From Hydrogenobaculum sp. Y04AAS1 (GTDB lineage: Bacteria > Aquificota > Aquificia > Aquificales > Aquificaceae): a stretch of 64,000 nt of DNA. The stretch is taken from assembly GCF_000020785.1 (NCBI RefSeq), contig NC_011126.1, positions 806,001 through 870,000 on the forward strand, read 5' to 3'. Positions 9,798 through 48,622 of the stretch are shown in pieces (within the stretch, counting starts at the first letter, position 1; every line of letters starts with the position of its first letter). The position numbers and the translations under genes were made by a program. The notes beneath the pieces are model-generated. The model was not told the origin of the DNA. It did not search any database and worked only from the letters and a program-made list of their open reading frames with translations.

Positions 9798-10706
9798 TTA
9801 TAAATTTTCTTGTAAAAGCACATAAAAACTCTCTCCCATGCTAAGTATTAGGTTTTTAAGTCTGGAGCATCTTTCGATGGAGTATGCATCCTCCTCCTGG
9901 CATACTTCTTCTATGGTCTTTATAAAATAAGGGATGTCCATAAGGAACTCCCTTTGCCTTTTTAAAAAAATGTTTTTAAAACCAAAATACTCTCCTATTT
10001 TTTGAAGCATAGAAAAATCCACCATGTACGTGATGTCAAATATCTCATCTGAGTATATATTTTGGACAATTTTTGAGTTTTTATAACCTCTTATCGTGTT
10101 TTTATGAGGCGATGTTTTGTACCCATAGTCTATACTAAGTATATACCCTTTTCTTAAAAGCTTTGATATTTTTTGATATATGTAAAAACTATCTATGGGC
10201 AATTCGTAATAAGCGTTATCTAAATTTAGTATATCGATAAGAATTTTGGTATCCTCATGAGGCTCTTGCCATATTTCTTTTGGTGGTTCTATGTAAAGCT
10301 CCTTTTTATCTTTTATGGGGGCTATACCTAAAGCGTCGAAAAATTCGTTCGACAGCACTATGCCCTCAAAAGGCTCTAACATGCTAAGATCATCTATCCA
10401 AATTACATTTTTACATTTGAGGTTTTGTTTTTGGATGTTGGTTAATCTTTGGCTTGTCTCATATATTATATAAGGAATGTTTAAAACATCCAATATATCT
10501 TTAGCCATAATGCCGTTTCCAGCCCCAAGCTCCAATATCTTAGGATTATCAAAAGCACTTATATAATCTTTTATAAAGTAAGCTATGCTTTTTCCAAAAG
10601 TCTCATCAAGTTCTGGTGATGTGAAAAAATCTCCTTTTCCTATTTTGGGGTTTGTAGAATAATAGTTTTGGGCTTTTTGTATAAAAAAATCGTAAAAACG
10701 TTTCAT
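9798..10706 (-). CDS. MidA/NDUFAF7-family SAM-dependent methyltransferase
   Basis: This protein of about 302 residues is a DUF185 (MidA) methyltransferase; mitochondrial NDUFAF7 methylates an Arg of complex I. Evidence is the entry motif GKGDFFTSPELDETFG, SAM motif I in ILELGAGNGIMAKDIL, the acidic LSNEFFDALGI and the YGYKTSPHKNTIRGY stretch. The frame extends to 10793, but MKRFYDFFIQKA at 10706 is the likely start because it lies 6 bases after a minus-strand TATAAT. The upstream extension would run into the divergent acetyltransferase gene. A role in respiratory-complex assembly is an inference from the homologue. Confidence 0.82.
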   Translation of the reverse strand: MKRFYDFFIQKAQNYYSTNPKIGKGDFFTSPELDETFGKSIAYFIKDYISAFDNPKILELGAGNGIMAKDILDVLNIPYIIYETSQRLTNIQKQNLKCKNVIWIDDLSMLEPFEGIVLSNEFFDALGIAPIKDKKELYIEPPKEIWQEPHEDTKILIDILNLDNAYYELPIDSFYIYQKISKLLRKGYILSIDYGYKTSPHKNTIRGYKNSKIVQNIYSDEIFDITYMVDFSMLQKIGEYFGFKNIFLKRQREFLMDIPYFIKTIEEVCQEEDAYSIERCSRLKNLILSMGESFYVLLQENL

Positions 10707-10722
10707 GCTAAAATTATACATC
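10707..10722. promoter_or_regulatory. 16-bp divergent promoter with overlapping -10 elements
   Basis: Only 16 bases separate the MidA ATG (minus, 10706) from the acetyltransferase ATG (plus, 10723). TATAAT for the minus gene occupies 10713-10718 and TAAAAT for the plus gene 10709-10714, so they overlap by two bases. They stand 6 and 8 bases from their start codons. Both transcripts would be leaderless and any -35 would lie inside the opposite coding region. Confidence 0.55.
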
Positions 10723-11157
10723 ATGATAATAATGGAAATGACAAAAGAGTATATAGATGAAGTTATAGAGATAAACAATTTATCTTTTACCACAGATGCT
10801 TGGAACGAGCAAGGATTTTACAGAGAGTTTAATTTAGATTATTCAAAAAAATGGGTGGGCTTGGAAGATGGTAAGGTAATAGCCTATGCGATATTTTGGT
10901 GTCATGGTACAGAAGCTTTTATGATGACATTTGCAATACACCCAGAGTATAGATCAAAAGGAATAGCTTTTAAATTTTTGACAGAGGTTTTCGAGCTCTT
11001 AAAAAAAGAAAATATAAACTATGTAGAGCTTGATGTCAGAAAATCAAACTTACCAGCCATAAAATTGTATAAAAAGCTTGGATTTTCTATCGAAAGGGAG
11101 CGCACTGGTTTTTACTCAGATGGGGAAAACGCTTTTGTAATGTCAAAAAAGTTATAA
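10723..11157 (+). CDS. GNAT acetyltransferase, RimI-like
   Basis: This 144-residue GNAT-fold protein is most like RimI, which N-terminally acetylates ribosomal protein S18. The acetyl-CoA motif is IHPEYRSKGIAFKFL (R/Q-x-x-G-x-A) and the C-terminal RimI-type segment is LDVRKSNLPAIKLYKKLGF followed by RTGFYSDGENAFVM. Three in-frame ATGs cluster at 10723, 10732 and 10738. The first lies 8 bases after the -10 hexamer and is preferred, without strong evidence. It is transcribed alone, divergently from the MidA-type gene. Confidence 0.82.
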   Translation: MIIMEMTKEYIDEVIEINNLSFTTDAWNEQGFYREFNLDYSKKWVGLEDGKVIAYAIFWCHGTEAFMMTFAIHPEYRSKGIAFKFLTEVFELLKKENINYVELDVRKSNLPAIKLYKKLGFSIERERTGFYSDGENAFVMSKKL

Positions 11158-11170
11158 GTTATAGTCTTAT

Positions 11171-11422
11171 TCAAAAAAGATAGTTTTTAAACTTATTAAA
11201 ATTTGCTATGGCTTGGGCTAACCCAAGCCTCTTTTCGCTAGCTATTTCTATTATGTAGTTTAAAATCCTTAAAGATTCCTCTATATCTTCTTTTGACTCT
11301 TTGGAAACATCTAAGTTAGCCAACTCTTCCAAACAAGTTCTAGCTTTATCGTACTCATCGGTTTGAACGTACAACTCACACTGAAGGAGCAGCTTTTTCA
11401 GTGGCGACTGATTTTGATCCAT
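11171..11422 (-). CDS. Small helical protein after fliS, possible FliT-like flagellar chaperone
   Basis: The 83-residue product is all helical and charged, with no recognisable motif. It overlaps the fliS end by 47 bases and has its own GGAG site 6-9 bases before the ATG at 11422. Position directly after fliD-fliS is where many bacteria encode FliT, a small helical chaperone for FliD. Assignment to FliT rests on size and context only. Confidence 0.5.
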   Translation of the reverse strand: MDQNQSPLKKLLLQCELYVQTDEYDKARTCLEELANLDVSKESKEDIEESLRILNYIIEIASEKRLGLAQAIANFNKFKNYLF

Positions 11423-46892: not shown

Positions 46893-46915
46893 AGGAATAT
46901 ATTATAATAGATTTT
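46893..46915. promoter_or_regulatory. 23-bp divergent promoter with palindromic -10 ATTATAAT
   Basis: The palindrome ATTATAAT (46901-46908) supplies TATAAT to both strands. It lies 7 bases before the plus ATG at 46916 and 8 bases before the minus ATG at 46892. Neither gene has a Shine-Dalgarno. Confidence 0.55.
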
Positions 46916-48622
46916 ATGAAGTACAAAGAATATTTGGAAGCAAAGGGATTGCCAGATACGGAAGAATCAAAAAACAAATACTTCGAAGAGTATGGAAACC
47001 AGCTTCATAAATTTTTATATAGAGATTTTTTAGAGAGAGCAAAAGGGCTTTTAAAAGAAAGATATGAAATTTTTCTACAAAAAAGAAGAGAACTTGGAGA
47101 GCATGATTTAAAGGTATTAAATATACTTGGCCTCATCACATTTCAAGAACAAGTTAAACTTTTTATAGAGATAGCTTCATACTATGCGCTTGAGCCAGAA
47201 GATGGTTATAATGTAAACTTTACTATAAAAAGCATAGAAGCGGATAGAATAATAGCTGACGAGGGTATAATAACCTATATCCCAATATATACTAAAGACA
47301 AGAAAAATTATCTTGTTTCTATATCAAAATTTGAGGCTATAAAAAGGGATTACGCAGCTATATCTCAAGAATCACAATTTATCACAGATTTTAAGGATAT
47401 AGTAAAAGTAGCCCTTGCTAAAAATGCTTCAGACCTTCACATAAAACCAAAAGACAACTTTTACTATGTATTTTTCAGGATAAACAAAGATTTTGTAATG
47501 ATGCCAAATATGACTATGCCAAAATCTCAAGGTATTCAGCTTGTTAGAAGCTTAAAAACCCAAGCTTCAAGATATACAAAAGGCTCCTTTAACCCATCCA
47601 TATCTTCCCAAGTTCAAGACGCTCGTATTTCTTACGAAGATCTATCCACCGATGTTAGGCTTGTGTTTGCCCCAATGCCAAATCTAGAAGACGAGATGGT
47701 GGTAGGAAGATTGCTAAGGAAAAGGGGCATCCAAGGTAATCTTTCGAGGCTCGGATATCTTGAAAACGACATAGCAATTCTACAAGATGCCATAAGCAGA
47801 AAAGGTGGGCTTTTTGTCATAAGCGGCATCACAAACTCCGGTAAAAGCATGGCTATAGCTAGCATGCTATCTACAGTACAAGATAAGAATGTGCTCACAG
47901 TAGAAGACCCTGTTGAATACCAGATTATAAACAAAAATATAACGCAGTTTCAAATATTTGAAGCTCAAGTGGAAGAATTAAAATCAACGTTTGTAGATTT
48001 TACAAAAGCCTTCAAAAGAGCGGACCCAGACATAGTTTTTGTAGGCGAGTGGAGAAACGAACAAGAACTTTCAAAGGCTATAGAAGAGCTAGCTTTTGCA
48101 GGTCAGCTTGTTTTTACCACGCTTCATATAAATTCCGCCTTTGTATTTTACGACGCCGTTAGCTCAATATTTCACGTAGATTACGAAAGCTCCGTAAGAA
48201 TGCTTATACTCAGCCTAAACCAGGTTTTAGTCAAAAGCGTTTGTCCTCATTGTGCTATAGAGATGCCTATAAAAGATGCATCACGGACAATCTCTGATAT
48301 AACGCTAAAGACACTCCCATATATCAACAAAGATGAATTTAGAGATTTTATAAACCAAGATTTCCCAATAAAAGTAAGAAACGAAGCCGGCTGTCCAAAA
48401 TGCGGCTTTACAGGATATGCAGGTCTTACGCCGATATACGAATACATGTATCCAGACGTAAACACAAAAGAATGGATAAGAAAAGACAGACCGTCTTCTT
48501 ATGAAATAGAAGACCATATAAGAAGAGAGCGTCTTGGTAAAAACAAATTAGATGTATACATGGAAAAGCTAAAAACTGGTATAGTAGAGTTAAGCCCACC
48601 AGTTTTAAATGCTTTGAGATAG
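46916..48622 (+). CDS. PilT/GspE-like secretion ATPase
   Basis: This 568-residue type II/IV secretion superfamily ATPase powers pilus or pseudopilus assembly or retraction. An N-terminal domain of about 160 residues precedes NASDLHIKPKD. Walker A is GITNSGKSM near residue 308, the Asp box is LTVEDPVEY, Walker B is DPDIVFVGEWRNEQEL and the His box is FTTLHIN. Two Cys pairs (CPHC and CPKCGFTGYAG) fit the GspE/PilB zinc site. It may serve the pseudopilins at 42187-43359, as no other such ATPase is visible here. Divergent to the HerA-like gene. Confidence 0.82.
   Translation: MKYKEYLEAKGLPDTEESKNKYFEEYGNQLHKFLYRDFLERAKGLLKERYEIFLQKRRELGEHDLKVLNILGLITFQEQVKLFIEIASYYALEPEDGYNVNFTIKSIEADRIIADEGIITYIPIYTKDKKNYLVSISKFEAIKRDYAAISQESQFITDFKDIVKVALAKNASDLHIKPKDNFYYVFFRINKDFVMMPNMTMPKSQGIQLVRSLKTQASRYTKGSFNPSISSQVQDARISYEDLSTDVRLVFAPMPNLEDEMVVGRLLRKRGIQGNLSRLGYLENDIAILQDAISRKGGLFVISGITNSGKSMAIASMLSTVQDKNVLTVEDPVEYQIINKNITQFQIFEAQVEELKSTFVDFTKAFKRADPDIVFVGEWRNEQELSKAIEELAFAGQLVFTTLHINSAFVFYDAVSSIFHVDYESSVRMLILSLNQVLVKSVCPHCAIEMPIKDASRTISDITLKTLPYINKDEFRDFINQDFPIKVRNEAGCPKCGFTGYAGLTPIYEYMYPDVNTKEWIRKDRPSSYEIEDHIRRERLGKNKLDVYMEKLKTGIVELSPPVLNALR

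Follow-up and report, generated by a model that had tools for sequence, protein, structure and literature searches.

A 16-bp gap between divergent MidA-like and rimI genes of Hydrogenobaculum as a probable bidirectional promoter with a shared −10 box and leaderless transcripts

Hydrogenobaculum is a hot-spring bacterium. In the window analysed here, a stretch of 64,000 nucleotides from Hydrogenobaculum sp. Y04AAS1, the genes for a MidA-like protein and for RimI are divergent, and their start codons are so close that positions 10704-10725 read CAT-GCTAAAATTATACATC-ATG. This arrangement raises the question of how such a short segment could direct the transcription of both genes. The explanation that we favour, with a probability of about 0.78, is that the gap is a bidirectional sigma-A-type promoter associated with rimI, in which a −10 box is shared by the two strands, both mRNAs would be leaderless, and the polymerase would bind in one orientation or the other. 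The features of the junction, which is real, conserved, and probably functional, are collected in Table 1.

Table 1. Features of the MidA/rimI junction (window coordinates)
Feature	Coordinates	Strand	Basis or remarks
MidA/NDUFAF7-like SAM-dependent methyltransferase (PF02636)	9798..10706	−	start ATG 10706-10704; Pfam PF02636 match
rimI, ribosomal protein S18-alanine N-acetyltransferase (GNAT)	10723..11157	+	start ATG 10723; TIGR01575 match
Intergenic gap, 16 bp, the entire inferred bidirectional promoter core	10707..10722		sequence and five-species alignment
Predicted rimI −10, TAAAAT	10709..10714	+	8 nt 5' of ATG (6 nt in species G002); invariant in five species
TGn ahead of the rimI −10, predicted extended −10	10706-10708	+	same form in the genome-wide logo
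Predicted MidA −10, TATAAT	10713..10718	−	6 nt 5' of ATG; invariant in five species
MidA codons 2-12, few synonymous changes in the genus	10671..10703	−	possible upstream contact region of the rimI promoter

Both gene products exceed the cut-offs of their families, with 104.2 bits for the MidA-like protein against PF02636 (gathering cut-off, 23.3) and 109.1 bits for RimI against TIGR01575 (curated cut-off, 86.4). Homologues from outside the genus align with the MidA-like protein from residue 1-4. In-frame start codons farther upstream, with which the two genes would overlap, were rejected because they are lost in species G003 and G002, and the starts at 10706 and 10723 were retained. Two rimI ATGs, at 10723 and 10738, are common to all five congeneric species, and it is possible that rimI starts at the latter, with a leader of 15-17 nt. 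The 16-base spacing of the original prediction is exact (10707-10722), its coordinates are right, and the two overlapping −10 elements that it described, one per strand, are found in the gap. The TAAAAT box on the + strand matches the consensus in five of six positions and is directly preceded by TGC, the TATAAT box on the − strand matches in all six, and both have 2 bp in common within a 10-bp AT-rich core, TAAAATTATA. At the other end of rimI, a strong terminator-like hairpin (GGCTTGGGCTAACCCAAGCC, window 11210-11237) lies 3' of the gene, between convergent genes.

In random 16-mers of the local intergenic composition, a −10 (defined as at least 5/6 matches with TA...T, 5-8 nt from the end) appears near at least one end in 6.7% of the cases and near both ends in 0.45%. 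The conservation in five species places the layout of this junction beyond chance. Alignment of the same junction in related genomes, as had been proposed for checking the prediction, revealed that the two genes are divergent in 5/5 species of the genus, with gaps of 16, 16, 16, 16, and 14 bp and both hexamers kept, while the divergent pair was found in none of the other genera examined. The core TAAAATTATA is identical in the five species, in which both −10s and both ATGs are invariant, and the differences within the gap are confined to position 10708 and to the last four bases ahead of the rimI ATG, including the loss of 2 bp. These data bear on the possibility that the perfect TATAAT of MidA is the single real −10, in which case rimI would be weakly transcribed, or transcribed from elsewhere, and TAAAAT would be kept only through the overlap and the AT-rich nature of the gap. 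That the + box is a 5/6 match, 8 nt from the rimI ATG, agrees with this proposal. Nevertheless, the four bases of TAAAAT outside the overlap are also invariant in the five species, the 12-mer GCTAAAATTATA precedes rimI in another genus where the partner is a different gene, and rimI has no upstream gene on the same strand from which it could be read through, making this option quite unlikely.

The genomic context of this layout was examined in a 464-kb sample of the 1,559,514-bp genome of a member of the Aquificales, in which genes and starts were assigned by a simple home-made codon-usage caller. The −10 boxes peak 6-7 nt before start codons, most strongly for genes in divergent pairs (35 hits among 80 genes), and no −10 peak was observed at that distance from the internal ATGs used as a control. 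When 69 promoters were aligned on their −10 box, the logo obtained was TGnTATAAT, an extended −10, and the best −35 scores upstream of these boxes were the same as those of shuffled sequence. According to this peak and to this logo devoid of a −35, many first genes of this genome are predicted to be leaderless and to have an extended −10 promoter. This is in line with the survey of Zheng et al. (2011, PMC3160421), in which the Aquificae are named as a leaderless-rich group, with 20.7-32.4% of genes predicted to be leaderless in two of five genomes. MidA and rimI both fit this layout, with a −10-like box 6-8 nt 5' of the start and no Shine-Dalgarno sequence, and because of this distance both mRNAs are most likely leaderless. 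At divergent gaps shorter than 40 bp, a Shine-Dalgarno-like 4-mer was found upstream of 0/12 genes. The sample contains 40 divergent gaps, six of them below 40 bp, and the MidA/rimI gap is the shortest one.

The original prediction also held that the −35 elements, if used, must lie inside the opposite coding regions. None is recognisable there, since the best hexamer on each side matches only two of six positions, and the genome shows no −35 signal at such −10s. A −35 in the opposite gene would thus be unneeded, and the same absence explains that a plain −35/−10 scan of the gap returned no promoter. These results also weigh on the idea that the junction consists of two ordinary promoters with their main elements in the opposite coding regions (longer leaders, or −35s in the first codons), the AT-rich gap being incidental. 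In agreement with such an arrangement, MidA has unusually few synonymous changes in its codons 2-12, with a difference of 0.07 versus 0.32 overall. However, an equally low 5' divergence was found in 9/73 control genes and the 5' end of rimI exhibits no unusual synonymous conservation, which, together with the absence of −35-like hexamers at both places and genome-wide, renders two ordinary promoters unlikely. In view of the control genes, the MidA signal is weak and was not accepted as proving that a promoter element is embedded in the gene, and it could at most hint at an upstream contact region of the rimI promoter. Synonymous divergence is low again (0.11-0.16) at codons 241-276 of MidA, near the 3' part of the gene. 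A 30-base repeat of the 5' end of MidA in another part of the genome proved to be a coincidental likeness to a HypB-like coding region.

In the favoured reading, that of a shared leaderless promoter, the AT-rich box TAAAATTATA would serve as the −10 for either strand, positioning the polymerase without −35 contacts, with the TGn extension aiding on the rimI side. Transcription would begin at or within ~2 nt of each start codon, yielding MidA and rimI mRNAs that are translated as leaderless messages. The −10s and ATGs predict starts at ~10706 (−) and 10721-10723 (+), 15-17 bp apart. Given that the + box is a 5/6 match located 8 nt from the ATG in four species, a rimI leader of ~2 nt and a strictly leaderless rimI are equally probable. 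Since the −10s share bases that two polymerases could not melt together, binding must, from this geometry, be either/or, with one polymerase at a time in either orientation. The mutually exclusive binding that had been predicted is therefore sound, but this does not extend to a regulatory effect. In the bidirectional promoters of E. coli, binding is likewise stated to be either/or, and competition is negligible at basal activity, arising only upon activation of one direction (PMC12825309). Consequently, MidA and rimI should not be taken to repress each other strongly, and the effect on expression would be modest unless one direction is strongly active.

The closest known systems are the bidirectional promoters with a shared −10 described by Warman, Forrest, Wade, and Grainger, in which the two transcription start sites are 7-25 bp apart, with 18 bp as the commonest distance (PMC10268837, PMC12825309). 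The MidA/rimI junction resembles them in the overlap of −10s on opposite strands, with the expected competition between polymerases, and in a predicted separation of starts that falls within that range and near its mode. In contrast to them, it has no −35, its −10s overlap by 2 bp instead of adopting the 18-bp register, and the two transcripts are both coding and appear to be leaderless, which makes the entire intergenic region the promoter core. The reciprocal coincidence of −7T and −11A typical of the 18-bp subtype is absent at this junction, where the −11/−7 positions are 10710/10714 on the + strand and 10717/10713 on the − strand; spacings other than 18 bp (7-25 bp) belong by definition to the bidirectional family (PMC10268837, PMC12825309). 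The best reading is that the MidA/rimI promoter is a compact leaderless variant of this known kind. It also resembles the TA-led (leaderless) bacterial genes of Zheng et al. (2011, PMC3160421), with a TAtaaT box ~10-12 bp upstream of the start codon, in a leaderless-rich group. Unlike here, genes are taken singly in the available part of that survey, where two leaderless genes on one box are not described. In Mycobacterium tuberculosis, lysG and lysE are divergent and have overlapping promoters and one leaderless transcript, but they differ in their 108-bp gap, their −35 elements, and their LysR-type regulator (PMC5648196). Within the literature searched, whose coverage is incomplete, no description of two leaderless genes with a common −10 was found.

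Outside the genus, rimI lies in a divergent gap of up to 25 bp in 5/6 sampled genomes of other genera, with five different partners. These are ProC (gap of 18 bp, core AGCTAAAATTATAT; 12 bp with an earlier ATG), MtnP (13-19 bp), PrfB (17-22 bp in three genomes, longer in others), an NfeD-like membrane protein named from reading the sequence (21-24 bp, core TTAATTATAATTT), and Kup (19 bp). The first three pass their NCBIfam cut-offs, and the match to Kup is below its own. In the same six genomes, 20/572 genes (3.5%) are in divergent gaps of 0-25 bp, with starts taken from the caller, those of rimI being judged by eye; a simple binomial by hand gives ~3e-7, for draws that are not independent given the common descent of the rimI promoter. 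MidA, in contrast, is in such a gap in 0/17 cases outside the genus, where it is mostly found in same-strand operons, and the possibility that the junction is conserved on the MidA side was rejected. From this difference it follows that the compact two-way promoter, as predicted from sequence, travels with rimI, and that MidA is its partner in the window genus. The short divergent arrangement of rimI is frequent in the family, not universal, as rimI is behind a same-strand gene in genera g3, g7, and g9, and in part of g6, g10, and g11. In genus g10 (L044, L130, L131, L136), where rimI is opposite proC, GCTAAAATTATA is shared with the window genus.

A promoter owned by rimI would thus have been joined to differing divergent partners across the genera of the Aquificaceae. 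Tentatively, and at less than even odds, it might be a persistent two-way element, leaderless and free of −35, that gives new neighbours a ready leaderless promoter, MidA, ProC, MtnP, the NfeD-like protein, PrfB, and Kup having been swapped repeatedly at distances of 13-24 bp, possibly by recombination in the shared −10.

Divergent gene pairs frequently have a common regulator. This general observation, along with the weak symmetry of the core, would fit a gap that acts as the operator of a regulator, its near-symmetry marking a protein-binding site and not two −10s. Still, neither MidA nor rimI encodes a DNA-binding protein, and the core is not fixed between genera, shifting toward −10 consensus forms (TTAATTATAATTT, TAAAATTATA), so an operator is very improbable.

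Under the shared-promoter reading, the gap illustrates to what size a working divergent promoter may be reduced, as it would consist of one shared −10 and two spacers of 6-8 nt. Leaderless initiation removes the requirement for a leader and a ribosome site, and the extended −10 that for a −35; the best reading is that leaderless initiation strips the shared-−10 bidirectional promoter to its minimum. With its six partners, rimI offers a natural series to test the persistence of bidirectional promoters through gene rearrangement.

The MidA/rimI junction is not unique, and similar junctions recur in the genome and in the family. A second compact divergent gap of 23 bp (window 46893-46915) contains two TATAAT boxes without a mismatch, each at 7-8 nt from its ATG, and it is kept in four species, at 22-24 bp, with the core ATATTATAATAGATT intact. 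The gene at 46916 was unusable as a control, having just distant paralogue-like matches outside the genus. In genome G063, an 18-bp divergent gap between start codons (L165:12813-12830), AGTGATAAAATTTATCAC, is a near-perfect palindrome that may be a shared promoter of still greater symmetry.
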